Below are positions 2,053-47,458 of a stretch of 64,000 nucleotides of DNA, in pieces. The notes under the pieces are model-generated. The model worked only from the letters and a program-made list of their open reading frames with translations. It did no database searches and had not been told where the DNA came from. The position numbers were made by a program, and so were the translations under genes. Origin of the DNA: Moringa oleifera (taxonomy: Eukaryota > Streptophyta > Magnoliopsida > Brassicales > Moringaceae); the NCBI GenBank assembly GCA_021397835.1, contig JAJFZO010000896.1:2520501-2584500 (forward strand). Reading direction: 5' to 3'. Position 1 is the stretch's first letter; each line of letters opens with the position of its first letter.

Positions 2053-3396
2053 CTATAATCCGCTCCTAATAAAACTAGAGCCCCTGGCCTTCCTCACATG
2101 TTGATTAGCCATCAACTTTCTGACCCTTTCTGCATCATCCCACTTTCCATTCAAGACATACAAATCTGATATGAGTGTGTAAACCCCTCCATCATTTTCT
2201 GGTTTTATCACCTTCAAGACCTGCTCAACAACTCTCTCAGCCACCTCAAATTTCCTATGCTCCTTGCAAGCTGACAAAAATGAACCCCAGATGATGATGT
2301 TTGGTTCAAACCTCATAGTTCTAAGAATCTCATACGCTTCTTCTATCTTGCCAGCCTTGCCAAACAAGTCCACCATGCACCCACAGTGTTGAATTCTCAG
2401 CTCCAAACCATACTCTTCAATCATCCTAAAATACTTGCGCCCCTCCTCAATTAATCCTGTATGAGCACACGCGTTAAGAATCCCGGTGAACGTCATCTCG
2501 TTCGGACTTATCCCCATCTCTTGCATCATCTCAAACAAAGACAAGGCTTCTTTGCTGTAACCTTGTTGAGCCAAGCCACAGATCAATGCAGTCCACGTCA
2601 TTACGTTCTTTTCTGGCATCAACTCAAATATATTTAGAGCGTACTTTAATAAGCCGCATTTGGCATATGTGTCAACCAAAACTGTGCCAAATTCTACATT
2701 CATCTCCCAAGCATTCTTCACCGTAAAACCATGAACTGATCTCCCAAGAAGCAAACCAATGGAACCGAGGTGAGCACACCCCGATAAGACCGATCCTATG
2801 GTTACTTGGTCAGGTTTCAATGGTTCTTTGGCCATCATTTCTCGGAAAACCGCCAATCCTTGGTTCCAGTTCCCGTTATTCACATAGGCTGCAATCATGG
2901 CAGACCAAGAAGCAACGTCCCTCGAAGGGATCGCCTCAAAAATAACACGCGCTTGGTTAACATGCCCAAACCGGGAATACCCAGTTATCATGGTATTCCA
3001 GGTGACCGCGTTGCGTTCAGGCATTTCGTCGAACAATGCACATGCGTCCCCGAACGAAGCAAGGCCATAAGCGTTAAGAAGAGAAGTGGCGACGTATACG
3101 TGAGTGGATAGTCCTAGTTTCAAGATATGGGAATGAAGGTGGCGAATGATGCCAATATTATGCAGAGAGGCGCATAACTTGAGTGTAAAGAGGATGGAGA
3201 AGCTATCGAAGGGAACGGATTGGCGGTGCATTTGGGAGTAGAGTTGCAGGGCTTTGCTGGGAGAGGAAGTATTTTTGATTGCAAGAGCCCATGAATTGAA
3301 GGTTTTAGAGAAGAATGAAAATGAGTTGCTCACGGGCCTGAGGAAAGGAGAGAGAGGGATGAGCATGGAATTGATGCGATTGCTCGAGTTGCTCAA
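2053..3396 (-). CDS. PLS-class pentatricopeptide repeat protein with E domain
   Basis: Intact single-exon gene of 447 codons, as is typical for plant PPR genes. The N-terminus is Ser/Phe-rich, consistent with an organelle-targeting peptide. Repeat units follow, such as VTWNTMITGYSRFGHVNQAR, VASWSAMIAAYVNNGNWNQG and VMTWTALICGLAQQGYSKEA, alternating with long and short variants (PLS class). The C-terminus from about residue 365 (IIIWGSFLSACKEHRKFEVA to GSSFIRSGL) is an E-type extension. There is no DYW deaminase domain. Members of this subclass bind organelle RNA and usually help specify C-to-U editing sites, with the deaminase often supplied in trans. At 447 residues it is short for the class, so it has few repeats. 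Another ATG ten codons downstream is possible. The target transcript cannot be inferred. Confidence 0.9.
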   Translation of the reverse strand: MSNSSNRINSMLIPLSPFLRPVSNSFSFFSKTFNSWALAIKNTSSPSKALQLYSQMHRQSVPFDSFSILFTLKLCASLHNIGIIRHLHSHILKLGLSTHVYVATSLLNAYGLASFGDACALFDEMPERNAVTWNTMITGYSRFGHVNQARVIFEAIPSRDVASWSAMIAAYVNNGNWNQGLAVFREMMAKEPLKPDQVTIGSVLSGCAHLGSIGLLLGRSVHGFTVKNAWEMNVEFGTVLVDTYAKCGLLKYALNIFELMPEKNVMTWTALICGLAQQGYSKEALSLFEMMQEMGISPNEMTFTGILNACAHTGLIEEGRKYFRMIEEYGLELRIQHCGCMVDLFGKAGKIEEAYEILRTMRFEPNIIIWGSFLSACKEHRKFEVAERVVEQVLKVIKPENDGGVYTLISDLYVLNGKWDDAERVRKLMANQHVRKARGSSFIRSGL

Positions 3397-23599: not shown

Positions 23600-26500
23600 T
23601 CAAATCTCTCTTTCTGTTTGCTCCCAAAGGATACATTCTTTCAGTCTTTGCTGAGGGTTTCCTTCAAATATGTACTCATTCTCTAACAGTTCCACAGGGC
23701 TTGTAATTATTTCAAGGTGCAGTATGGCCAAACTATGATGGCAGCAAAAATATGCATTTGGCTCAGCCTGACTGAGAGTGAGAGTTTGGTACCAAGGATA
23801 GCTGCTCAGTACCCTTGCTCCGCTGATCTTGTCCTGGGGTTCATATACAAGGCAGATACCATACGTTTTGGTCTCAAACCCAGGGGGCATAATCACTGAA
23901 ACATCTATGTAATCCCCAGCTTCCAACTCATCATTTCCAAACTGCCAGTGGCTAAGCCATAACATATCCTTCTCTTTGGCTCCTGGAATTGCATAGAAGA
24001 TTGGGGTATAGGTCCACCTCATACCCTTAGCTGTATTATGGATTTGAGCATGATATGGATAAAATGAAGTATATTCTGGATGAGGACGTAATGTATATGA
24101 AATGCATAGACTCAAGCCCTGGATCTTGTGTCCATTAATTGGAGGAATATGAAAAGAAATTGATGAACCTGTACTCTGTTGGTTAAAACATGGTGGCATA
24201 TTACTTCCTGAGAGAAAAATGCTTGGTAACACCACGTTCAGCAAGTACCTGTGCAATTGGGATTCTGTGATTGAATTTCTGTACAATGATCTATTGTGAG
24301 GAATTGGAGTGTAGTAGATTTGGTGATGCTTTCTGGTCGTCTATGGAAGGGGTTACCACTCAGATATAGTACCTGCACCATCATCTGATAAATTGCAATC
24401 TGGAAGACATAACACAGAGCCGGGTAAAAAGACTGGTAAAATGCCAGTGGAATGTGGACTTTTACGTAACAACCAAGACCAAAAAGTTGAATGCCGTAAT
24501 GAAGGTGATAGCAGATTCAGTATCTTTGTATCTCTGGTTGTAGCCAGTAATTGATTTATGGAAATTCCATCTGCATGAAGCAGCTTCAATGACTCCATTT
24601 CCCTTAGGTCCTCAGGCAGCTTATCAAGTTTTACACAACCAGACAAATTCAGTTCTTCAAGAGACTTCAGCATACCAAAATTCCTGGCAAGTTTGATGAT
24701 AGTTCTGCAGTTTTTCAGATTTAAGAAAGCAAGTTGCTTCAGGTCTCCAATGGATTCATCGACCTTAACCAAATTGATGCGGTCTTTGGGGATCAATCTC
24801 TCAAGATTAGGGAGTCCCAAGAAATCAGGACTTCTTATGAGGCTGTGGCAAATGACTTAGGTTGAGAAATTTCAACTGTGGAAGAAACTATTGCAAAAAA
24901 GAAGAAAGAAGAGGAATTAGTTTCTTTTTAATAGTCAAATATTCCATGGGAAATAAAGAAAGAGAGAAACACAGAAACACACCTTGGGTCCTCTCCAGAC
25001 ACGTTTCAGGCTGCCATAATGCAGATCAAGTGCAACTAGTTTCTTCAAAAAAATTTTGTTTGGCATGGAATCCAAACAAAATCCATGCCAACACAACCAT
25101 ATAAGATTCCTAGGAAAATCTTCATAGATCCCCTTGAGCTTCACAAAATTAAGCTGGAGGAGGTTTAGGTTAGGCATCTTTGTGAGTGTCTTGGTCTCCA
25201 AATCTACATTATTTCACATTGGAAATCAATATTCTGAGACACTACTTATCGGCTGCCAGGAGAAGAAGCTAAGCCAACGTCTTTTCAAAGAATTTCCTAT
25301 GGTAGATTTGTCAAGAGACTCTTCATGATACTGGCGTTTGGCATTGTTTGCACTTGCGGCAGCCTTTTCATGCTTGTTTTCCATTAACTTAAGCAGATCA
25401 CAACTGAGTCCCTTAATTGCTTCTGCACCCTGCAAACCGAAGACATGAACGAGAAAGTAAAATGATATCAACTAAGTGAAACAGTACCTGCAGAAAAGCT
25501 TACACATGATCATCAAGAAATATGAATGACCCTTTAAAGGCGTCTTTGTGATGCCACAGTTTGCTTCGTTTTCCTGGTTCATCTGTTGATTCTTGGCGAA
25601 CAATCTCCCTTCCAATGTCTCTGACTAGTTGATGCATTTCTAGCTTCTTTTTGTGATGCCACCTATCTATTAGATTTTGAATTCCATTAGCTGTGTAGTA
25701 ATTACAGCCATCTAGTATCCCCACTGCGTAGTACCTGTCCTTGCCCATGAAGAAACAAGCTAAGTCAAGGAATAAGTTTTTATCATGATCATCCTGTAGA
25801 GAGTCGTAGCTTATTCTAAGAATTTTCTGGACTTTGCATTGCTTCCAATTTCTTTAATGCACTGTCTCAAACAGTTGTACTTTTTCCAGACAGAGAAGAA
25901 CCCAAAACTCGAAGAGCAAGTGGGAGTCCTCCACACTGGTCTACCACTTTTCTTGAGCAATCCCTGTGACTTTCAAGAGGATGGCCTTGTCCAAAGGCAT
26001 TCCAACAGACGAGCTAAAGGGATTCATGGTCATCCAATTCTTTAACATTAAATTTCTTACAAACTTCATCAGCCTTAAGCAGCCGCTCATGTCTAGTAGT
26101 TATGAGGAGCTTACTTCCTGGAAGAAGCCACTCTTGCATTCCAATTATTGCACCTAAATGATCTAGTTCGTCGACATCATCAAGAACTATGAGAACCTCT
26201 TTGCAGCTTAATGCATCTTTGATCTCAATGATTCCTTGATCCGCATTGTTTACCTCATGCTTTTTCCTCAAGTCCGGCAAGGGTCGTTTTCCCAATTCCA
26301 CCAATCCCATAAATTGTTGCTCTAACTACATCATGGAAGCTCTCTTGCAACCACAAATTAATTTCTTTTGTTCGAGATTCAATTCCAACTAAATGGGGAG
26401 CAACATTTAGAATTCTTCGACTACTCAATTTAATCTCAACTTCTTTAACTATGTCTTGAATAAACTGTGACTCGTGCCTACAAATTGAAATCGAAATAGC

Positions 26501-27104
26501 AAATCAAACAAGAAAAGTAAGCAAAACTTATCTAAAATCTAGCTAGATTTTGATGAGCCAATATTGCTTGTTTACCAATCATTCTATCTAACATTTACTA
26601 TCACCTGTTTTGCAAAGGCAACCCTCCCAGATCTGCAGCTTCTTTGAGAGCTGCTCTCCAGCGCTCCAGCCATTGCATCTCCGACTTGAACCGCTTTGCA
26701 TGTCTGGCAAAGGCTTTGGCATAACTCCTGCTCTGCTTCCTAACCTGGGTTGGTTCCACATCATAGAAAACTGGCAAAACCATGAGCCCAACTGCTTTTC
26801 TCCGTTCCATAATCATCACAAGTTCATCGAGGCACCATCTGGAGGAAGCATAGTCTTTTGAGAACACAATTATTGCCACCTTTGACTCTTTTATGGCCTT
26901 TTCAAGTTCAGCCCCAATATTCTCTCCTCTCTCGATCTCATCATCGTCTCTGAAAGTGTGAATTCCTGCATCCACCAATGCCGCGTAAAGGTGATCAGTA
27001 AAATTCTTGCGCGTGTCCTCACCTCGGAAACTCGAGAAAACATGATAGTTGCATCTAGAAACGGAAGAGGCTGCTTCATGGGTTCTAGCAGCAACAGCAG
27101 CCAT
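23600..27104 (-). pseudogene. TNL disease-resistance gene, degenerate copy
   Basis: Collinear with the intact TNL at 33277-37316. The TIR exon (27104-26605) is intact. Later exons carry many lesions: a ~115-bp deletion just after the P-loop near 26276, removing the RNBS-A region and shifting frame; losses around 25660 and 25530; a frameshift near 25210; an extra A near 24846; a 32-bp loss near 24375; a ~345-bp loss at about 24270 that removes the end of the LRR exon and intron 4; and an extra A near 24232 in the C-JID exon. Recognisable stretches remain for NB-ARC (VLIVLDDVDELDH), LRR (NLERLIPKD...LKSLEELNLSGCVKL) and the post-LRR domain (FLSGSNMPPCFNQQSTGSSI). A full-length receptor is not possible. 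Confidence 0.9.
26255..27104 (-). CDS. Residual TIR plus P-loop reading frame of the TNL pseudogene
   Basis: Exon 1 is 27104-26605, and the second exon starts at 26477 after ATTTGTAG. The splice sites are the same as in the intact copy. The joined frame is 241 codons with stop (240 residues) and ends at a TGA created six codons after GIGGIGKTTLA by the post-P-loop deletion. The TIR keeps FRGEDTRKNF, the BB-loop FRDDDEIERGENI and the WCLDELVMIMERR helix with the glutamate that is catalytic in TIR NADases. FLSFRGED has become FSSFRGED. Such a TIR-only/TN-like protein could still be made, though there is no evidence here of expression. It is equally likely to be inert debris. Confidence 0.5.
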
Positions 27105-27424
27105 TGATGTTCCGTAACTCTCAAGAGATGGTCACACAGAATGGCACATAGTGGACAGCCACAGGAAATGTCAACGAGAAGAGAAGAGGAACATCTAAAA
27201 AGAAACGAAGGATCCAACTGCATACACATATACATTACGATGACTCCTTGATCTAATTTCTTGTCTTTTTGGCTTCTCCAACTTGTCTGTTAGAGCTAGC
27301 AGCAACAAATACACCTATATTGCCGAATTGTTCAAAGATTCTTGGTCGCGTAGAGCTTGAAAAGTGCCTATACACTGAGTAATCAATTATTCTTTGTCAC
27401 AGTTGCTTCACAGCCTTTCCATTG

Positions 27425-33276: not shown

Positions 33277-36200
33277 TCAAATCTCTCTTTCAGTTTGCTC
33301 ACAAATGATACATTCTTTCAGTCTTTGCTGAGGGTTTCCTTCAAATATGTACTCATTCTCTAACAGTTCCACAGGGCTTGTAATTATTTTGAGGTGCAGT
33401 GTGGCCAAACTATGATGGCAGCGAAAATATGCATTCGGCTCAGCCTGACTGAGAGTCAGAGTTTGGTACCAAGGATAGCTCCTCAGTGCCCTCGCTTCGC
33501 TGCTCTTGTCCTGAGGTTCATATACAAGGCAGATACCACATGTTTTGGACTCAAACCCAGGTGGCATAATCACCGAAATATCAACGTAATCCCCAGCTTC
33601 CAACTCATCATTTCCAAACTGCCAGTGGCTAAGCCATAACATATCCTTCTCTTTGGTTCCTGGAATTGCATAGAAGATTGGGGTATAGGTCCACCTCATA
33701 CCCTTAGTCGTATTATGGATTTGAGCATGATGTGGATAAAATGAAGTATATTCTGGATGAGGACGTAATGTATATGAAATGCATAGACTCAAGCCCTGGA
33801 TCTTGAGTCCATTAGTTGGAGGAATATGAAAAGAAATTGATGAACCTGCACTCTGTTGGCTAAAACATGTTGGCATATCACTTCCCGGGAGGAAAATGCT
33901 GGTAACACCGCATTCAATAAGTACCTGTGCAATTGGGATCATAGCAATTCAGTTATAAAAATGTCCTGGATAAAGAGGGCTTTGAAAGAGATGGTACCTG
34001 GAGGAAAGTCTTCTTTTTAGCTAATGTAATGACACTGAACAAATCAACTTCAATGCTTTGCAAAGACTCCAAATTTGACAATCCAAAATTTTGAAAAGCT
34101 CTCATGTCAATGTTTTCTATTGGTACTAGCTTGAATAAGCCCTGAACCTCAACCAACTTGCCACAACCGTAAACATCCAAGTCGAGCAATCTTGATGAGC
34201 TTGGTAGATTTGTAATCCTTTCCAGAGACGTACAATCATTTACCTCCAGTGACGTCAAACTCATTGGAAGCTCTGGAATTGATTGAATTTCTGTACAACG
34301 ATCTATTGTGAGGAATTGGAGCATAGTAGATTTGGTGATGCTTTCTGGTAATCTACGGAAGGGGTTCCCACTCAGATATAGTACCTGCAGACAAGGAAGG
34401 CTGCTAAGGTTATTGAGAATACCATCATCTGATAAATTGCAATCTTGAAGACATAACCCTGTCAGGGAGCCGGGTAAAAAGGCTGATAAGAAGCCAGTGG
34501 AATATGGTCTTCTTCTACGTAACAACCAAGACCAAAAAGTTGAATGCCATAATGAGGGTGATAGTAGATTCAGTATCTTTGTATCTCTGGTTGCAGCCAG
34601 TAATTGATTTATGGAAATTCCATCTGCATGTAGCAGCTTCAATGACTCCATTTCCCTCAGGTCCTCAGGCAGCTCATCAAGTTTTACGCAACCAGACAAA
34701 TTCAGTTCTTCAAGAGACTTCAGCATACCAAATTTCCTGGGAAGCTTGATGATATTTCTGCAGTTTTTCAGATTTAAGAAAGCAAGTTGCTTTAGGTCTC
34801 CAATGGATTCATCAACCTTAACCAAATTTATGCAGTCTTTGAGGATCAATCTCTCAAGGTTAGGGAGTCCCAAGAAATCAGGACTCCTTGTGAGGCTGTG
34901 GCAATGACTGAGGTTGAGGAATTTCAACTGTGGAAGAAACTATTGCAAAAAAGAAGAAAGAAGGGGAATTAGTTTGTTTCTAATAGTCAAATACTCCATG
35001 AGAAATAAAGAAAGAGAGAGACACAGAAAGACACCTTGAGTCCTTTCCAGACACATTTCAGGCTGCCATAACGCAGATCAAGTGCAACTAGTTTCTCCAA
35101 AGAAATTTTGTTTGGTATGGAATCCAAACAGAATCCATGCCAACACAACCATATAAGATTCCTAGGAAAATCTTCATAGTTCCCCTTGAGCTTGACATAG
35201 TTAAGCTGGAGCAGGTTTAGGTTAGGCATCTTTGTGAATGTCCTGGTCTCCAAATCTTGATTATTTGTCATTGGAAATGAATTTTCTGAGACACTACTTA
35301 TTGGTTGCCAAGAGAAGAAGCTAAGCCGACGCCTTTTCAAACAATTTCCTATGGTAGATTTGTCAAGAGACTGTTCATGATACTGGCGTTTGGCATTGTT
35401 TGCACTTGCTGCAGTCTTTTCATGCTTGTCTTCCATTAACTTAAGCAGATCACAACTGAGTCCCTTAATTGCTTCTGTGCCCTGCAAACCGAAGACATGA
35501 ATGAGAAAATAAGGTGATATCAACTAAGTGAAACATGTACCTGCAGAAAAGCTTACACATGATCATCAAGAAATACGTGTGACCCTTACAATTTTCTCTT
35601 TCAGTACTCTAAAGGCATCTTTGTGATGCCATAGTCTGCTTCGTTTTCCTGGTTCATCTGTTGATTCTTGGCGAACAATCTCCCTTCCCATGTCTCTGAC
35701 CAGTTGATGCATTGCTAGCTTCTTTTTTTTAACAGTTAGCAGGCACCTATCTATGAGATTTTGAATTCCATTAGCTGTGTAGTAATCACAGCCATCTAGT
35801 ATTCCCACTGCGTAGTCCCTGTCCTTGCCCACGAAGAAACAAGCTAAGTCAAGGAATAAGTTTTTATCATGATCATCCTGTAGGGAGTCGTAGCTTATTC
35901 TGAGAATTTTCTGAACTTTACTATCAGGAATTGCTTCCAATTTCTTCAATGCACTGTCCCAGACAGTTATGCTTTTGCCAGACAGAGAAGAACCCAAAAC
36001 GCGAAGAGCAAGTGGGAGTCCTCCACACTGGTCTACCACTTTTCTTGAGCAATCCCTGTGACTTTCAAGAGGATGGCCTTGTCCAAAAGCATTCCAACAG
36101 AAGAGCTGAAGGGATTCATGGTCATCCAATTCTTTAACATTAAATTTCTTACAAACTTCATCAGCCTTAAGCAGCCGCTCATGTCTTGTAGTTATGAGTA

Positions 36201-37316
36201 CCTTACTTCCTGGAAGAAGCCACTCTCGCATTCCAATTATTGCATCTAAATGATCTAGTTCGTCGACATCATCAAGAACTATTAGAACCTTTTTGCAGCT
36301 TAATGCGTCTTTGATCTCAATGATTCCTTGATCTGCATTGTACACCTCATGCTTTTTCCTCCTTAAATCCGAAAGGAGTTGACTCTGTAGGCGAACCAAA
36401 CCATTGCGTTCTTCCATGGTGTCTCTAACATTTGCAAGAAAGCTCCTGCCTTGAAATCGATCAAAGTTCATGTTGTAAACAGTTTTGGCAAGGGTCGTTT
36501 TCCCAATTCCACCAATCCCATAAATTGTTGCTATGACTACATCATGGAAGCTCTCTTGCAACCACAAATTAATTTCTTTTGTTCGAGATTCAATTCCAAC
36601 TAAATGGGGAGCAACATTTAGAATTCTTCGACTACTCAACTTTATCTCAACTTCTTTAACTATGTCTTGAATAAACTGTGACTCGTGCCTACAAATTGAA
36701 ATCGAAATAGCAAATCAAACAAGAAAAGTAAGCAAAAATTATCTAAAATCTAGCTATGTTTTGATTAGCCAATGTTGCTTGTTTACCCAATCATTCTGTC
36801 TAACACTTACTATCACCTGTTTTGCAAAGGCAACCCTCCCAGATCTGCGGCTTCTTTGAGAGCTGCTCTCCAGCGCTCCAGCCTTTGCATCTCCGACTTG
36901 AACCGCTTTGCATGTCTGGCAAAGGCTTTGGCATAACTCCTGCTCTGCTTCCTAACCTGGGTTGGTTCCACATCATAGAAAACTGGCAAAACCATAAGCC
37001 CAACTGCTTTTCTCCGTTCCATAATCATCACAAGTTCATCGAGGCACCATCTCGAGGAAGCGTAGTCTTTTGAGAACACAATTACTGCCACCTTTGACTC
37101 TTTTATGGCCTTTTCAAGTTCAGCCTCAATATTCTCTCCTCTCTCGATCTCATCATCGTCTCTGAAAGTGTGAATTCCTGCATCCACCAATGCCGCGTAA
37201 AGGTGATCAGTGAAATTCTTGCGCGTGTCCTCACCTCTGAAACTCAAGAAAACATGATAGGTGCATCTAGAAACGGAAGAGGCTGCTTCATGGGTTCTAG
37301 CAGCAACAGCAGCCAT
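33277..37316 (-). CDS. Intact TIR-NB-ARC-LRR (TNL) disease-resistance protein
   Basis: Five exons: 37316-36817, 36688-35590, 35481-35035, 34927-33998 and 33924-33277. All junctions are GT-AG and stay in frame, giving 1207 residues. The TIR spans about 18-160, with FRGEDTR, BB-loop FRDDDEIERGENI and the WCLDEL helix whose glutamate (E94) is the NADase catalytic residue in active plant TIRs. NB-ARC spans about 180-530, with P-loop GIGGIGKTT (224-232), kinase-2 VLIVLDDVDE, RNBS-B SKVLITTRHERLL, GLPL at 390-393 and MHQLVRDMGREIV, so MHD reads MHQ (493-495). LRRs run from about 590 to 930 (NLERLILKD, LAFLNLKNC, LKSLEELNLSGC, LQVLYLSGN). The last exon is the post-LRR (C-JID) domain with FLPGSDMPTCFSQQSAGSSI. 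TNLs detect pathogen effectors and signal through TIR products and EDS1. The cognate pathogen is unknown. Introns are short (128, 108, 107 and 73 bp). Confidence 0.93.
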
Positions 37317-37634
37317 TGATGTTCTGAAACTCTCAAGAGATGGTCACACAGAATGGCACATAGTGGACAGCCACAGGAAATGTCAGCGAGAAGAGAAGAG
37401 GAACATCTAAAAAGAAAAGAAGGATCCAACTACATACACATATACTGTACAATGACTGCTTGATCTAATTTTTTGTCTTTTGGCTTCTCCAACTTGTCTG
37501 TTAGAGTTTGAAGCCATAAATACACCTGTATTGCCGAATTGTTCAAAGATTCTTCGTCGCGTAGAGCTTGAAAACTGCCTATACACCGAGTAATGATTAT
37601 TCTTTGTCACAGTTGCTCCACAGCCTTTCCCTTG

Positions 37635-38192: not shown

Positions 38193-38315
38193 GAGGAAAA
38201 TTCTATTTTAATCACCCGTATAAGGATATTTACGTAAATAACTAACATTACTAATGTATTTGTTTTTAACACTTTTTAGACACTTTGAGACAAAATTACC
38301 TTTCACAGCAGATGT
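38193..38315 (+). repeat. Left terminal repeat of the MULE (degenerate)
   Basis: Weak similarity to the inverted right end: GAGGAAAATTC at the tip, and TTTTTAACACTTTTTAGACA at about 38272 matching TTTTTAGCACTTAAATG from the right end. The match is imperfect, so the exact tip is uncertain. Confidence 0.45.
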
Positions 38316-38894
38316 ACAATTACTTACTTGTCCAACTACAGAATATGAAAAGTCAAACATCTCAAACGTCTCTATTTCCCTCTCTCCTAATTCTGGCGCT
38401 AAGCTTTACCACTTAGCTCGTTCAGCTTCAGCTCTCTTCATTCGGTGTCTGTTGATTTCTTTGCTTTTGTTGTAAACCAACCTTTCCTCAATACTATCCG
38501 CAAGCTACTGAATCACTAAAAAAACAATAGAGGTATGATTTCAAGCATCTATTCTACTCAAATTTCTGTGTGTTTTTTGCTTATTGAATACCCACGGATG
38601 AAATCCTTCCCTCATATTTGATTCAACGATTTCTTAATTTTTTTGAGTTTACTCTATGGGTTTGAAAGCTTCTCCAATAGTTTTTGAATCATTTTCTTTT
38701 GATTTTGTATTGGTTTTGGAATCTGCGATGTTTGGGTATATCGCGGTGTATTATTTTTCATTTTTCTTTTAATACATTGAAACCCAAAAATTTCTCTGGG
38801 TATATGTATATAGGTATCGCATGCTTAAGTCTTCATTTACTGGTTTATTGGCTCCAATTTCTTGGCTTAGGTGCATCTATATGCAACGGTTCAT

Positions 38895-39175
38895 CGCATT
38901 CGTGACCTCATAATAATAATCGTATCTATTTAACGAAATCGTAACCTATTTTGTTAATGGAACTGTTTTTTTATGCAATCGTACTGTGATTTTGCATAAA
39001 TCGTACCTTGTTTGTTGAAATCGTATCGTATTTGTTTTCAATCGTAACTTGTTTGCTTCAATCGTACCTTTTTTGTTTTCAATCGTGACTTATTTTCTGG
39101 AATCGTACCTTATATGTTTGAAATCGTAACTTATTTGATTAAATCGTACCTTGTTTAAAACAATCGTACCATAAT
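38895..39175 (+). repeat. TCGTRMC motif array in the leader of the Ulp gene
   Basis: Thirteen close matches to AATCGTACCTTGTTTG or AATCGTAACTTATTTG in about 280 bp, all on plus, ending just before the splice acceptor that precedes the start codon. Core variants are TCGTACC, TCGTAAC, TCGTGAC and TCGTATC. Confidence 0.9.
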
Positions 39176-39229
39176 TACTAAATGAAAAATCGATTTTTTG
39201 ACCCTTTTTTTTTTTTTTGTCAAATGCAG

Positions 39230-42200
39230 ATGGCAAGTAGCCTTGTTTCTCAGAAGCCATATGTGACCCCCAAAGAGTCGTGGAAGACTGAAAAGATACT
39301 GAAGCACTGTGACAATGATGTCATCCCCACTCTAAGGACAATTTTGGATGACTCTGAGAAGGAGAAATTCAAAGGGACCTGCTTAGGGCATTTCCTACAT
39401 TTGCACGCCGATTTTAACTTCTCAGGGATTATTGTCCATAATCTGCTACTTCGGGAGATTCAGCAGAACCGCGAGGACGAAATGTGGTTCAGACTTGGGC
39501 AGAATGAAGTTCGTTTCAGCAAAGTGGAATTCTGCCTAATCACTCGATTGAAGTTTGGCGAGCTACCAGATACAGAGAATATTGAAGCTACTCCATCTGG
39601 TATCCTAGCCAAATACTTCGGGGGGAGGGATAAGGTTACTGGTAGTAGCATCAAGACGAGGTTACTACAAGGAGAGTTTGAGGACGAAGACGATAAACTA
39701 AAGCTGGGGTTGTTGTATCTGCTGAATGGGTTCATCAAAGGCCACGACGAGCGGCAGCAGATCCCTACATGGCAGTTTCATTTAGTAGACAATTTAGAGG
39801 CGTTCAATGGCTTTCCATGGGGCACCTGGGTCTACTGCAACTCCATATTGCATTTCAAGAAGGCAGTTGCAAATCGAATTAGGGATGTTGATGGGGTGAG
39901 CTATAATGCTTACGGCTTCGTGTGGGCATTACACGTAAGGATTTTGTTTGAAATTTTTTATTTTACTTTTTTAAAGTTTCATTGAATTTTATATTAATCA
40001 ATTATAACTTCATTTTCATTTTTTTCACAGGTTTTTGCATTTGAAGTGATTCCTGCTACCAACATGCATGGCATGAGGTTGTCAGGATCCGACTTGCCAT
40101 TGCCAAGAATTTGCCGATGGAGGTTCCATCGCAGGCTCCATAATGGAGATTGCAAGAAAATCTTCACAAACAGTGTAAGTAATTTCGTACCTTCTTTCTC
40201 TACTTCGTGCCTTACTTATAAATTTCGTACCTTCTTTCTATACTTCGTGCCTTCATTCTAAATTTCGTACCTTCTTTCTATACTTCGTGCCTTCATTCTA
40301 AATTTTGTACCTTCTTTATCTACTTCGTGCCTTCTTTCTAAATTTCGTACCTTCTTTCTCTACTTTGTGCCTTCATTCAGCCATTTCGTGCCTTACTTTT
40401 TCAATTTCGTGCCCTCTTTCTCTAATTTTTATGTTTTACCTTAACGTTTCATTTTCGTATATTCATTCTTAATTTCGTAACTTTATTTGTATTTTCAGAT
40501 GGGGGCTAAGCTTAATTTGAAGCCAACTACTGCCGAGCGTCAAGCCCCATACTATGTTGGGGTTGAAGACAGTGTTGTGCCCGGCCAACCATCGATTCGG
40601 GATGACGAAATTGTAGAGTCTCCCATTCGGATCAGGGCTACAAATTCGTCTTCTTCTTTGCGCAAAACTTTGAAGGTAAGGGAGAGGATCCCTACTGAAG
40701 AAGAACGAATTGTCGACGAGTCAGAGCCGGACCTGAGGGAAAGGGATGTTGAGCGGGAGGCACCTGGCGCTGAAAGGATTGAACGGGATCCAGATGTTTA
40801 CCGTCGTCTCGTAGCTATGGAGTCGAAATTGGAACTTCTCGAGGCGAAGGTAAATCGTATGGACTCAGACAACGAAAGACGCCATCAGGAGCAAATGGTG
40901 ATCCTGAAATCCATCCAATTATCTCTACAAGGATATGGATTTGGTGACCGAGACCCATCTCCACCTATGTCAAATCCAATTCCCAATGAGGTAGTTCTCT
41001 AATCTATTTCAACTGTATTTTTTGTTTCGTGTATTACTAATGATATATTTCTTTCTTTAGAACATTATTAAATGTATGTATTTAATATGACTTTCTAATT
41101 CAGTACATTGTTTGTTTTTTTTAGGGTGGTATGGCAGACTCAGCCCAAGAGGGCTTGGCTCCTGCAGGGCAATGCGACGAAACAGAAGCCACTACAGGGC
41201 CAATGGAAGAAGTTGTCACTGCATTCCCATGCAGTGACAACTTCGGGGCTCCTGCTGTGGTAGATAAAGAATTGCCATCTACAGAGTCACCCAAAAGGAC
41301 GGCAGCGAGGGACTTGGCCCTTGTCCCAGTTGAGGCCATCGACAATGTGATGCTGGTTGTCAGGACTCGTAAACGGTCAAGACAACTGTGCAGTCCATAT
41401 GTTGAGCTTCATACTGGGCATAAGAAAGCCAAGTCCACTCACATGGTCAGCGCGAAGTTGCAAATATCATATAAGATCATCGCTGCATTCAACGACTTCA
41501 TGAAGGGCCAGTCATAGTAAGTATTGCATAGCATATGTGTTGCATACTAATTTTTTTAATTTAATTTTTTTGAATTATTTTCTCATAGTTTCTTTTTATT
41601 TCCTTCAGCTGCAACGTAGGCATTGGCCATTCTGTGAGCGTGGACTGGTTCAAAGCCCTAGTTGACAATGATGAGTGGATCGATGACTCTGTAAGTTTTC
41701 AATTTTTTGCACTACATTATTATTCCTTGCTTAAATGTCGTGCTTTTGTTTCATAACATGATTCACAGTATCGTAACATGTTTCATAGTATCGTAACATG
41801 TTTCATATTATCGTAACTAAAATTATAATTCGTAACTTTATTTCATAACATGTTTCACATTATCGTAACATATTTCATAGTATCGTAACATGTTTCATAT
41901 TATCGTAACTAAAATTATAATTCGTAACTTTATTTCATAACATGTTTCACATTATCGTAACATGTTTCATAGTATCGTAACATGTTTCATATTATCGTAA
42001 CTAAATTTAGAATTCGTACCTTGATTTCGTATATTCATAGTACTGATAATATCACTTTTCTAATGTCTCCACCAGCACATTGATGCATATTTGCACATAT
42101 TGCGGAGAAGGCAGAAGGAGCTACCTGAGCAATATGCACAAGATATCTGCATCTATGATCCTTGGCTATATGTAAGTCCCTTGATCATTAAGACTATTTA

Positions 42201-43004
42201 TCTGATTTTCTATTCAATTTATTTGTTGACTTTGTTTTATTGTTCAAATTTACAAACAGCATTTTATTACATTTACAACGATTATCAGAAGGATCCAGAT
42301 GCTGATTGTCCTCCGGCACACTCGAACTTTGAAGCGCATAAATGGGAAAAAGATTTCCTAGACCGTGTGCGAGGCAAATTTTCAAGGGATTGTCCTGCTT
42401 GGGACACTGTAAATAAGGTTAGTTATCTTCATTAGTAATGATTTATATACTTATACTTTTTTTTTCCATATTATGAGTACTCAATGATATTTAAACATTA
42501 TTTAATGTAGCTGATGGTTCCTTGCCACGTTGGGGGATCTCACTGGCTCCTAGTTGTCATTGATCTGAGGAAATTCTCGTTGCGTGTCTATGACTCATTT
42601 CATCAAGAGATACCAACTGAAGCGAGGATTCGGCAGCAAAATCCATTCAGATGGATGCTAACTAGCTATATGGCGAGTGGCGGATATTTCATTCGGAAAT
42701 CAGATGCCAAAATGCCGGATCTTCCACTTTCATGCACTTTGGAGCCAAAGAACAAGGTCCCTCAGCAACGAAGAAGGTAAGTCTTTTTTCCAGTATGTGT
42801 TATTATAAATTTTCTGGTGAATGTCTTTCCTTATTCTTATTTTTTTTTTTTTGCAGTGGCAATTGTGGTCCTCACATGCTGTATATTATAGAACATTTAC
42901 TACTTAGGAAACATTTAAAATACACTGACAAGGATATGTCAGTTATTAGAAATCACATGGCAATGTATATATTTGCCAACTCCACTGTAGATGATAGTCA
43001 TTGA
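39230..43004 (+). CDS. DUF1985-Ulp1 (C48) protease gene of the MULE, intact
   Basis: Nine exons join without a stop: 39230-39934, 40031-40174, 40499-40990, 41125-41516, 41609-41690, 42076-42171, 42289-42417, 42511-42776 and 42857-43004, giving 817 residues. The ATG directly follows a CAAATGCAG acceptor, so a leader intron is likely. The N-terminal ~240 residues are the DUF1985 region (FRLGQNEVRFSKVEFCLITR). A charged middle has a coiled coil at about 380-425 (YRRLVAMESKLELLEAKVNR). The C-terminus is a Ulp1/SENP-type cysteine peptidase: His691 in GGSHWLLVVID, Asp708 in LRVYDS, Cys772 in SGNCGPHM. Family enzymes process SUMO or related proteins. In MULEs the role is unknown, and DUF1985-bearing proteins include candidate anti-silencing factors. 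An acceptor at 42259 would extend exon 7 but breaks frame. All three catalytic residues are present. Confidence 0.86.
40175..40498 (+). repeat. 40-bp composite motif array in Ulp intron 2
   Basis: Five units at 40181, 40221, 40261, 40301 and 40341, exactly 40 bp apart. Each has ATTTCGTACCTTCTTTCTA followed 20 bp on by ACTTCGTGCCTTCATTCTA. Further loose copies run to the 3' splice site. Confidence 0.92.
41729..42050 (+). repeat. 92-bp higher-order motif array in Ulp intron 5
   Basis: Units begin TTTCATAACATG at 41749, 41841 and 41933 (92-bp period). Each contains several TATCGTAACATGTTTCATA copies plus AATTCGTAACTTTA. The last unit degrades to TTCGTACCTTG. Confidence 0.92.
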
Positions 43005-43194
43005 TATCATTTTTTTATTCTTATTCAATGTATTTATTTTGTATATACATTTGAGAATTGTATATAACATTTTTACAATTGTATATGACATTATTTTGTA
43101 TATATAATCCAAAATTTTACAATTGAAACAGTTTTTTTTTTGTCAATAGATGTATGATGTACTAATAATGTTATGAATTTTGGTAACGTCTCCA
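43005..43194. other. 3' region of the Ulp gene
   Basis: AT-rich sequence with TTTGTATATA-type repeats and likely polyadenylation signals. No motif array. Confidence 0.4.
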
Positions 43195-43868
43195 TATGAT
43201 TCTAACTCATCAATCAAGCTACGAACGTTACTCATAATTTACTAATCAATGTACGAATTCATAATGAAGTTACGAATACATAGTCAAGTTACGAATTTTA
43301 CTAACGAATACATAATCAAGTTACGAATTCATAATCAAGTTACGAATTTTACTAACGAATACATAATCAAGTTACGAACGTTACTCATAATTAACTAATC
43401 AAGGTAAGAATTCATAATGAAGTTACGAATTTTAATATCGATTTCATATACAAGTATCTCAGATACATAAATCAAGTTACGAACATTACTCATAAATTAC
43501 TAATCAAGGTACGAATTCCTAATAAAGTTACGAACTCACAATAAAGTTACGAACTCATAATAAAGTTACGAATTTTACTAACGAATACATAATCAAGTTA
43601 CGAACGTTATTCATAATTTACTAATCAAGTTACGAATTCCTAATAAAGTTACGAACTCACAATAAAGTTACGAACTCATAATAAAGTTACGAATTTTACT
43701 AACGAATACATAATCAAGTTACGAACATTACTCATAAATTACTAATCAAGGTACGAATTCCTGATAAAGTTACAAACTCATAATAAAGTTACGAATTCAT
43801 AATGAAGTTACGAATTCATAATCAAGTTACGAACATTACTCACAATTTACTAATCAAGTTACGAATTC
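43195..43868 (-). repeat. GTTACGAA motif array between the convergent MULE genes
   Basis: About 25 copies of AAGTTACGAATTCATAATC-like units. Reverse-complemented they read TTCGTAACTT, sense to the transposase. Spacing is often 19-20 bp. A 121-bp higher-order unit starts at ACGAATTCCT near 43511, 43632 and 43753. Confidence 0.92.
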
Positions 43869-43995
43869 AATGGTAATAAGGTACACTCATCTGCATGTAA
43901 CAATTGAAACTATATAAAAACCTAACCTAAAATCCGAATATGTGATGACGTAGAAGTTAAAAATCATCAATATCATAAAAAATTACTATAATTTA

Positions 43996-46900
43996 TCATA
44001 AGTCAATGGTGCAATCATCTTGTGAATTTGATTTGTGAGGCATTTGACAAGTTTGTGCGTTATGACTAACTCCACCACAGTTACGGCATTTACGACGAAA
44101 TTGATCAGGGACATTTGACGACTGACAGTGGCTTACTCCATCAAAATATTGTGGATTCGAGCATGTTAATCGATTGTGCCCATATTGAAAGCATCTAGAG
44201 CATTTTTTTTTACGTGCCATCTCCCCACCAGAGGGTATTCTCTGCTTCTTTGGACGTCCTACTGAATTACCATTATTCGGTGGTAATATCACAACTCTTT
44301 TGATTTCCTCGGGTACATTCCAATCAGACTTGTCGCCAACTGGATATACCGACTCAGCATATGCAGCTACTAGTTGATCCTGTTTGTAGTAGTTAGAGCA
44401 AAGAGTTATGAAATCAATATTACGTTCCCTACAAAAAGTACACAACATATGAAGTTAATGAAAAAAATAACATGAATAATGAAATTAACAAAACCATCAG
44501 TATCACCTGGAAGCTGCCAGTGCATGTGCACATGGCAAAAGATCAGCTTGAAACTCTCTACAAGTACAAGTACGGTCGATAAGGTTCACAATTGCCTCTT
44601 TACCCTTGTGCCTAACTAAAAATACGTTCCAATCAACATTGGAAGTCGTCATTTGTAATGAAACTTTTTGTCTCTCATTCATCAATGAGTGAACCCACTC
44701 TGTGAGTTGTGACCTCCAAGCCTTAGCTTTTTTCAATCGATCATAGAACCAACGTTGCATCATATCTCGAATGAATTCCAATAAAGCCATAACGGGTAAC
44801 TCACGAGCAAATCGAAGACATGAATTCAAACTTTCGGCAATGTTAGTGGTCATGAGTTAATAACGTCTCCGGGGGTAATACACACGTGACCATTTTTTTG
44901 GATCTTCCTTTATGATATATTCAAAAGCTTTAGGGTGATTAGCCTGTAACTCAATCATTAATTTATTAAATTCAAATTCTCGATATGCCCTAGCCGCACT
45001 ATAAAATATCTTAGATACATCTTCTCTCTTAAACTTATTCTTTATGTTTTGAGCCATATGCCAGGAACATAAACAATGACAAGAATTAGGAAAGACCTTT
45101 GCGGTGGCCTTTGCAATACTGGCATGACGATCTGATATAATAACCAAGTCTTCAACCGAACCAATTGCTTCTTTTAGCTGCCCTAAGAACCATTCCCATG
45201 CTTCATAGTTCTCTGAGTCACCATAACCGAATGCTATTGGATATATCTGTTCATTCCCATCTTTACATGCCGCTACAAACATTACACCGTGGAACCTCCC
45301 TTTTAGGTGAGCAGCATCAATAGCAATGACCGGTCTAATTACCGAATGAAATCCCCTCAATGATTGTCCAAGAGCCACAAATAAATACTTAAATCGATTA
45401 GTTCCATCCTCGATGCATATGTGAGCCCTAGTTCCCGGATTAACAGTTTGCAACATGTGGCAGTATGAAGGCAATTGTTGATGTGACTCAATTAGATCAC
45501 CATAAGTAAGAGACAATGCATACTCTTTAGCCTTCCAAGCTTTACTATATAAAATCTGTATGCCATATAGTTCTTTCATGTCTCTCATGATGTCTTTCAG
45601 CTTAATGATTCTAGCATTGGTAGACAATCTCTGAGCTACAATTTCTCCAATAACAGCAGAACTTGCTTGTCGATGTCGTCGATGCAACTCTTCAACCGTG
45701 CAAGTATGCGTCAAATCACACCTTCTAATTTGGAAGAATTGCCCTTGCGTAACTCTCACAGCACAAACCTTCCATGCACAATTTTTTTCTCTACAAGCAA
45801 TCTCAAATACTGATTTGTTAAACCTAGTGACTCTAAATTCAAAGTTCTCAGTTAATGCATGCATACCCAAAAATCGCTTCAACTCTTTCTTGTTTGGGAA
45901 AAACTGACCTCTAGCAAGGGTATGAATCGGAGTCACTGATTCCATAGTAGGAGTCGGAGCAAGACTATATAATTCAGCACCCAACACATTATATCGTCTG
46001 ACAACACCATTATTTGAATTATTATGTACTTCTGGGCATGCAACTGGGATATAAGGTGGGACAGTACGTAAATTCTCATTCACTGCTTCATTATCGAGTT
46101 CTACCTCTACAGTGAGTTCACATTGATCTTCACTGGTAGGCTGAGTAGGTTGAGTTCCCATGATTGGGTATTCACACCCAATATCATAGTCCGCCTGTTC
46201 ATCCAAATTTATCTCATCGGTGTGCTGAGTGTCAACAGGAGTATCACTATGGATGAATGGTTCGGGGCCATAAACGTCCAATTGCACAGTAGGATTACTT
46301 CCCGTACAAGAGTTAAAAGGATTAACTCCTCCTGAAATTTCACCTTCACATAAACCATGCCTATTTTCAACAAAATTTCTCTGCACCAAATCAACAATTA
46401 TACGTGGAACTATACTGTCATCGTACAACATAAACTCAACATCTTCATCATTCCTTAACTCAATTTTGACAGCAGTTTTTTCAGATCTTACTATGGTATG
46501 CAGTACAATATCAATATTAGAGAAATCAGCCTCCACGCAACATTTAACCAAATCCAACAACTGTACATATTTCAAATCCCTCAGAATAACATACCCCTTA
46601 GTTTTGATGGCTCTGCCAATATACTCAAAACTTTCTCTAGACTCGGACCACTCACCATTCCAAGTTATAATGATCCGGATTCTGTAATAAAAAAAACATT
46701 TTAAATAACAAAGATGAATATATGATTTCGCATGTTACGATTTCATCAATTAAGTTACGATTTCATCAAATAAGTCACGACTAAATCAAATAAGTCACGA
46801 AAACTTGTTACGATTTTATGAATGTTACGAATCTCATAATGATGTTATCAAATAAGTCACGATTGAAAAACTTGTTACGATAAACAAAGTAAGATACAAT

Positions 46901-47059
46901 TTTCAAACATGTATGAAACTAAGATCATGACACGATTCTCAACCAATGTTATGAAATACAAAGGAGGAGATCACGATATAAATAGTTACAACTGAAATCT
47001 TCACGGTTTTAAGCTACATTACAGTTTTAAACGGTATACCTGTCACCTTCTTTACCCAT
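43996..47059 (-). pseudogene. MURA (MuDR-type) transposase with one in-frame stop
   Basis: Exons 47059-47040 (MGKEGDR, phase 2), 46681-44507 and 44428-43996 join to 876 codons, broken only by TAA at 44857-44859 (codon 615). The order is a PB1-like N-terminus (RIIITWNGEW, then ILRDLKYVQLLDLV); an acidic linker; a MuDR DNA-binding region (FFPNKKELKRFLGMHALTEN with FEIACREKNCAWK); an RNase H-like DDE core with Asp462 in VIAIDAAHLKG and Asp524 in IISDRHASI; the stop; then Glu623 in MTTNIAESLN; a SWIM finger (CTCREFQADLLPCAHALAA); and two CCHC knuckles (CSRCFQYGHNRLTC, CRNCGGVSHNAQTC). The frame is open on both sides of the stop, so loss is recent, or the base should be checked. The family cuts and moves MULE DNA in the nucleus. 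Confidence 0.88.
46720..46990 (-). repeat. Motif array in intron 1 of the MURA gene
   Basis: About ten copies of GTTACGATTT or GTCACGA (reverse complement AAATCGTAAC, TCGTGAC) spread through 46682-47039, sense to the transposase, between the 20-base first exon and exon 2. Confidence 0.85.
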
Positions 47060-47329
47060 TCGAGCACGGTCTGATTATGAAGAAGAATATATTGTCAAAA
47101 ACACGAGCTTCTTTCTCTGCGCATGATAACTAGCCTTCGATTTTTTCTTGGGATCTTGATTTGATAGATCTTGGATACAAAGATTGGAAGAAATAAAACT
47201 CAAAGGAAGGGCGAAGAAAGACAGAGCTCGAAGAGAGAGAGTGGCCGAAAGAGGGAAAGATTTTTCCGCCAAAAAAGAAATGTGTTCAGACAAATCTCAT
47301 AAATTTTCGAGTTCATTTAATTTTTAAGG

Positions 47330-47458
47330 GTATCATTGTCTTTTGCAAGGGTATTTTTGACTTTCCAAGACATTTAAGTGCTAAAAAAACCAAACTTAAT
47401 AAAACATGTTTTTTTCCCAAATGACCGGTATCTAACTGCCAATTTTGGCAATTTCGTC
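47330..47458 (-). repeat. Right terminal repeat of the MULE (degenerate)
   Basis: Reverse complement begins GACGAAATTGCCAAAATTGG and contains TTTTTAGCACTTAAATGTC and AAAAATACCCTTG, paralleling the left end. Confidence 0.45.

Follow-up and report, generated by a model that had tools for sequence, protein, structure and literature searches.

TCGTRMC arrays beside a DUF1985-Ulp1 gene: a probable sequence-specific anti-silencing system in a non-TIR MULE

Why is the noncoding DNA of a MULE tiled with one short word, TCGTRMC, beside a gene for a DUF1985-Ulp1 protein? The question is raised by a 64-kb stretch of DNA (hereafter the window), for which a first-pass annotation had proposed a candidate anti-silencing or self-recognition system. 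The arrays, together with the kinship between the DUF1985 protein and VANC21, support this reading. At a probability of roughly 80%, we consider the element to be a VANDAL/KAONASHI-type non-TIR MULE with a sequence-specific anti-silencing system, in which the DUF1985-Ulp1 protein would bind TCGTRMC and Ulp1 would be the effector.

The element and its two genes

The borders of the element (Table 1) were set by the edge of homology with closely related (clade-A) copies and by the borders of one sister copy (C1:231457-240720), where the equivalent positions abut an exact 10-bp target-site duplication, GTGTTTTCAC. The flanks of the window copy, AAAAATTTTA and AAAATATTTT, bear a weak likeness to such a duplication (7/10 bases). 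Pfam matches to MULE, DBD_Tnp_Mut and SWIM place the element in the MULE class. When the terminal 200 bp were compared with each other for an inverted repeat, the best local score was 20, against a mean of 18.6 and a maximum of 30 for shuffled ends; with nothing above the shuffled level, there is no TIR and the element is regarded as a non-TIR MULE.

Table 1. Positions of the element, its genes and its motif arrays within the window
Feature	Position	Strand	Remarks
Whole MULE	38193..47458	.	9,266 bp; termini GAGGAAAATTC ... GCAATTTCGTC
Array 1, Ulp leader	38900..39170	+	10 TCGTRMC, second half mostly 20-21 bp apart
DUF1985-Ulp1 (KIU/VANC-like) gene	39230..43003	+	nine exons, 826-829 aa
Exons 1-3	39230-39934, 40031-40174, 40499-40990 or 40993	+	splice search
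Exons 4-6	41125-41510 or 41516, 41609-41690, 42076-42175	+	splice search
Exons 7-9	42260-42417, 42511-42776, 42857 to about 43003	+	splice search
DUF1985 domain	39446..39832	+	related to the VANC21 portion whose complex with target DNA is solved (PDB 9lnj)
Array 2, Ulp intron 2	40185..40481	+	11 TCGTRMC, mostly alternating TCGTACC/TCGTGCC, 20 bp
Array 3, Ulp intron 5	41771..42020	+	12 TCGTRMC, mostly TCGTAAC, 20/19/33 bp
Ulp1 catalytic core	42511..43003	+	His (GSHW), Asp (YDS), Gln (PQQ) and Cys (NCG) present
Array 4, intergenic gap, 3' of both genes	43269..43864	- (MURA strand)	22 TCGTRMC, mostly 19 and 32 bp apart
MURA	43999..46682 (about 44508-46682 and 43999-44427)	-	Pfam DBD_Tnp_Mut, MULE, SWIM
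Array 5, MURA 5' noncoding part (first intron or leader)	46734..46880	-	8 TCGTRMC

For the DUF1985-Ulp1 gene, a splice search returned four open models that differ at two junctions only. The predicted protein matches DUF1985 (PF09331, E 1.5e-23, residues 73-201) and Ulp1 (Peptidase_C48, PF02902, E 4.4e-23, residues 600-819). The His, Asp, Gln and Cys of its GSHW, YDS, PQQ and NCG motifs, which we take to be the catalytic positions, recur as a pattern in four related 10-kb elements (L051-L054). By its sequence, the gene thus appears to be of the KIU type, i.e., a Ulp1 C48 protease domain within a MULE, catalytic residues present. The DUF1985 part is related to VANC21 by sequence and fold, remotely so at 19-20% identity, and we regard the protein as a VANC21 homologue. 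No match to DUF287 was found in the 828-aa protein, for which Pfam at E up to 0.01 gives DUF1985 and Peptidase_C48 only; its layout is therefore not that of VANC21, described as DUF1985 plus DUF287 in a figure legend (PMC5735166, Fig. 5 legend). For two DUF1985 proteins from Acer and Dipteronia (P0010 and P0022), the listed Pfam domains include CHY zinc-finger or RNase H-like ones, combinations that represent either fusions or annotation errors.

In the window copy, the transposase gene MURA is split by an in-frame stop (44857-44859), while DUF1985-Ulp1 has an open frame; 744-aa open MURA frames exist at several sister places. A minus-strand region resembling a TIR-NBS-LRR gene (33277-37343) comes to within about 850 bp of the element, with ORFs at 36813-37343, 35566-36714 and 33953-34939 (domains judged by eye). 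That the regions 33277-37343 and 23600-27131 are a tandem duplicate is suggested by another TIR ORF of similar kind (26601-27131) and by a downstream ORF that occurs twice (23600-24340 versus 33277-33948; likeness again by eye).

Oriented and phased arrays of one word

Exact TCGTRMC occurs 35 times in forward and 33 times in reverse orientation in the window, and 33 and 30 of these sites, respectively, fall within 38895-46990. The first-pass estimate of roughly 75 copies thus comes down to 63 exact ones, with degenerate units present besides (38 in-phase one-mismatch units over 13 compartments of three elements). That five noncoding compartments carry the motif is confirmed, each holding between 8 and 22 exact copies (Table 1); the one that had been called MURA intron 1 does contain its 8 sites and can be either a first intron or a leader. 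As had been claimed, the motif is scarce in exons and such clusters are missing from the rest of the window: all 63 sites lie in 4,071 noncoding bp of the element versus none in 5,090 bp taken as exon, and the 54,839 bp outside the element contain five. Dinucleotide-preserving shuffles of the noncoding compartments (n=200) gave a mean of 1.1 sites and a maximum of 4. No site was found in the other six Ulp introns or in the 80-bp gap between the two MURA exons.

The arrays are strictly oriented. In the Ulp half, 33/33 sites point one way and in the MURA half 30/30 point the other, so that each is sense to its own gene; dense same-orientation motif arrays in noncoding DNA, a hallmark of VANC systems, are therefore present. 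None of the 25 longest inverted repeats in the element, which reach 53 nt at 77%, involves the ends; each joins an Ulp-half array to a MURA-half array (e.g. 39124-39176 with 46748-46800), and a transcript spanning the arrays of both halves could fold on itself.

The spacing of the sites is likewise constrained. Among successive gaps of up to 80 bp in the window (n=58), 35 measure 19-21 bp and 11 measure 32-33 bp. Genome-wide, direct pairs compared with a reversed-pattern control peak at 18-22 bp (2,587 versus 173) and 29-33 bp (1,057 versus 179), with a dip at 23-27 bp (47 versus 265) and near parity at 34-38 bp (294 versus 284), where many pairs among the matches listed are skips of 19+19 bp. 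Converging pairs occur at 36 places versus 274 in the control, and the 42 DUF1985 loci sampled below contain 453 direct pairs, no converging and no diverging ones. Peaks at two and three helical turns are consistent with proteins loading next to one another along a single DNA face, even though a fixed 20-bp tandem unit would also yield the first peak, the second less so. Sasaki and colleagues are said to have named helical periodicity as a determinant in Arabidopsis, in a 2022 abstract. In the clade-B element L051, 13-bp gaps are mixed with 18-20-bp gaps at 2774-3063 and 1584-1717; in its forward arrays, 7/20 short gaps measure 13 bp, which singly is no whole number of helical turns.

A core shared by related elements with unlike fillers

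Of 417 candidate places in the genome, 150 were scored for DUF1985, and every one of these exceeded the Pfam cut-off. The sister sample comprises 42 of the 150, namely the 30 best and a further 12 picked to widen diversity, some of which rank near the end of the list. The motif is present in all 42, with 4-24 sense sites in pieces of 3.1-3.5 kb; opposite-strand sites are absent from 40 and number one in each of the remaining two. A sister with the DUF1985 protein but without the motif, which would have spoken against the first reading, was hence not seen in this sample. The four 10-kb elements show the same split as the window element, their forward and reverse zones being free of overlap (forward/reverse sites: L051 23/25, L052 13/12, L053 34/28, L054 15/9); the L054 piece begins inside the DUF1985 gene, and the forward site at 746 in L051 is located upstream of the homologous region.

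Equal motif density elsewhere, the other observation that would have told against that reading, was not encountered either. Twelve arbitrary regions of the same genome (42,000 bp) contain three sites, and six of the eight MULE control loci (out of 150 scored) have 0-2 scattered sites each (4 in 25.8 kb). The other two, L073 and L074, carry TCGTRMC arrays and have no DUF1985 match among the 150 scored places. They may be deletion derivatives living off the system, or their DUF1985 may simply be among the unscored candidates; as 150 of 417 candidates were scored, these figures do not establish that the two loci lack it. Triple matches number 1,152 + 1,072 genome-wide versus 46 + 52 for the reversed pattern, and among the triple arrays listed, all seven clusters on contig C1 up to 2.8 Mb have a DUF1985/MULE match inside or within 3 kb (judged by eye).

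The DUF1985 tree falls into three groups: A with the window copy and 23 sisters (91-97% identity to the window), B with 12 (76-84%) and C with 7 (59-62%); B does not form one clade, as L036 joins A with support 83. Covariation of motif and DUF1985, a check suggested at the outset, is indeed found. Pieces of group A contain a mixture with TCGTAAC, those of B mostly TCGTACC, and more than half of the sites in C are TCGTGCC or TCGTGAC. On the tree, this dialect label changes twice, the minimum possible (shuffled mean 16.1, as low in 0/200). Whole elements agree, with TCGTAAC leading in A (37/62, L053), TCGTACC in B (34/48, L051), and TCGTGCC plus TCGTGAC making up 23/25 sites in the clade-C element L052. 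Such agreement fits coevolution but is no proof of it, because any cis-linked repeat would follow the tree too.

While the core persists, its surroundings do not. Across 13 array compartments from three clades the core is common and the fillers are unlike, which upholds the earlier observations that filler differs between compartments and that the core was kept or re-amplified as it changed. In an unbiased count over these compartments, the top 5-mers were TCGTA and TCGTG, each enriched in 7/13, and TCGT occurred 182 times versus once for ACGA. Between the window and L052 (clade C), 88% of exon 1 and 93% of the large MURA exon align, whereas coverage is just 0% for exon 3 and 16% for exon 4, which encode the variable middle of the protein. 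The five arrays do not align at all, and still L052 carries 25 sites, oriented by gene as in the window. Against clade B, the leader, intron-5 and intergenic arrays are covered over 12, 3 and 0%, while the intron-2 and MURA arrays (2/5) do align. Array turnover between related elements, another mark of VANC systems, is thus seen while most exons align. Compartments also shift between clades, L051 (B) having no intron-5 array and L052 (C) no leader array. For DUF1985, dS amounts to 0.95 in the A-B comparison and exceeds what can be measured in A-C; as the core stands where fillers no longer align and dS is high, the word has outlasted neutral sequence.

Both domains appear to be under purifying selection, judging from dN/dS values of 0.11 (DUF1985, A-B) and 0.11-0.15 (Ulp1 exon; rough, as dS is near or above 1) between clades, and of 0.26 and 0.19, respectively, within clade A. 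CpG is enriched in the array compartments (223 observed versus 125 expected, 1.8x) and depleted in the exons (Ulp 83 versus 132, MURA 49 versus 80) as well as in 38 kb of the window (400 versus 935). Synonymous divergence of the DUF1985-Ulp1 half (39230-43003) is about three times that of the MURA half (44860-46682), with dS of 0.95-1.15 versus 0.36 between A and B, and of 1.84 (Ulp1 exon) versus 0.63 (part of MURA) between A and C, reflecting either different histories or different mutation or conversion rates.

Possible readers of the motif and known systems

We infer binding of TCGTRMC, demethylation and a role of Ulp1 along the following lines. The DUF1985-Ulp1 protein, a KIU-type VANC, would bind TCGTRMC, extended ANWTCGTRMCWWNWTT, gathered in large noncoding compartments. 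Because the sites are same-oriented and mostly two or three turns apart, many molecules could load side by side on one DNA face. From there, local DNA demethylation would extend across the element, permitting expression of both genes. Ulp1 could act as a tethered effector that cleaves SUMO or a SUMO-like modifier from silencing factors at the arrays; that it acts on such factors is a guess, and one paper, in the text available, doubts that KIUs act on SUMO (PMC6117577).

Other readers or none at all have to be weighed. That MURA rather than the DUF1985-Ulp1 protein reads the motif, as TnpA does in Spm, with internal sites aiding transposition or self-activation, seems unlikely to us. MURA sequence is present in the window and in L051-L054, the arrays of L073 and L074 come without a DUF1985 match in the scored list, and one study, in its accessible part, links TnpA and MURA each to reduced methylation of the element that encodes it (PMC10398659). 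However, the sites occupy introns and the mid-element rather than the termini, with a single orientation for each gene; arrays are lacking in six MULE loci of other kinds, the partner protein is a relative of VANC21, and with 150 of 417 candidates scored, the two exceptional loci may have a DUF1985 gene after all. We consider it very improbable that the motif works at the RNA level, in splicing, intron retention or nuclear RNA binding. This idea arises because the motif is always sense to the transcribed strand, in 63/63 window sites and with the same split in L051-L054. Yet the leader upstream and the gap between the genes are filled with it too, six of the eight Ulp introns are without it, its spacing follows a DNA-helix period, and DNA-binding VANC21 uses same-orientation arrays as well (PMC5735166, in the portion available).

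Hardly credible, finally, is the view that the arrays are neutral tandem repeats, born of replication slippage, that share a seed word by chance. In favour of this view, the units are arranged in tandem and turn over, arrays come and go in individual compartments from clade to clade, and an A-B alignment still covers two of the five. Against this stand the same core in the same orientation amid unlike fillers in 13 compartments of three clades, the contrast in CpG between arrays and window, the dip between the spacing peaks, and the failure to find equal density in arbitrary DNA or in six other MULEs, a small sample of repeats.

Within the preferred reading of a DUF1985-Ulp1 protein that binds TCGTRMC, the CpG deserves attention: since the recognition word contains it, the silencing mark sits inside the very site that the anti-silencer must read. 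The protein could either read methylated TmCGTRMC and home to silenced copies, or be blocked by methylation, such that one unmethylated array wakes the rest as a heritable switch. Lateral loading would concentrate the Ulp1 protease, which would strip SUMO or a like modifier from the silencing machinery. The joint claim of a methylation-sensitive reader, one-face concentration of Ulp1 and a word shared across three groups is tentative, and we rather doubt that it holds in full. If true, perhaps more than 100 elements in one genome, from three groups, would share one core in three dialects, opening the way to cross-activation among families. The locus offers a natural high-copy VANC-type system, probably outside the family of Arabidopsis; its motif can be stated explicitly, its three protein groups come with dialects to match, and the structure of a related protein bound to DNA has been solved. 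Questions that thereby become testable are which DUF1985 residues determine the choice of motif, whether the reader is gated by CpG methylation, and what purpose Ulp1 serves. Pairs of short motif and protein are also candidate tools for site-specific demethylation.

The kind of system is already known from VANC and from KIU-carrying Vandals. VANC proteins cause sequence-specific loss of methylation, VANC21 binding YAGTATTAY and VANC6 being linked to AGTTGTCC/AGTTGTAC, with motifs in dense arrays of noncoding DNA that for VANC21 share one orientation (PMC5735166, as far as its text was available). According to the accessible part of a 2026 review, some VANC genes carry Ulp1 (KIU), its function there being unknown, and KIU-carrying Vandals recognise motifs in other KIU-carrying Vandals (PMC13317346). 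In grapevine, ULP genes are reported in unrelated MULE families and CACTA elements, in the portion of the source at hand (PMC2528002). The literature searched, with the main KIU study outside it, did not yield TCGTRMC with its CpG or one core over three groups, which is weak evidence of novelty.

Like VANDAL21/VANC21 of Arabidopsis, the element is a MULE without clear TIRs whose DUF1985 protein is related by sequence and fold, and both, from what could be consulted on VANDAL21, have dense same-orientation arrays of a short motif in introns, intergenic and terminal noncoding DNA that turn over by tandem repetition. Unlike VANC21, its motif is TCGTRMC rather than YAGTATTAY, with a CpG inside, and Ulp1 is present with no DUF287 match; unlike VANDAL21, one core is common to three groups whose DUF1985 exons are 59-62% identical at the extremes. 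With KAONASHI (KIU) MULEs it shares an Ulp1 gene in reverse orientation to mudrA, going by the available parts of both sources (PMC13317346, PMC2528002), whereas its host, unlike that of Arabidopsis KIU systems, is probably not of the Brassicaceae (best match of a host PPR gene: Carica papaya, 75%). VANDAL6/VANC6 has the same design and, in the text seen, a motif that varies at one base in a fixed core, as do the dialects here, although the VANC6 core differs and is without CpG; TCGTRMC, YAGTATTAY and the VANC6 word AGTTGTMC share a loose pattern only. In Spm, the 12-bp motif of TnpA contains a CpG, and its sites are subterminal. TnpA, a different protein, is tied to demethylation of its own element (PMC10398659, partial text), as we propose for DUF1985-Ulp1. 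The element is probably another self-recognising anti-silencing system, with a CpG-containing word of its own.
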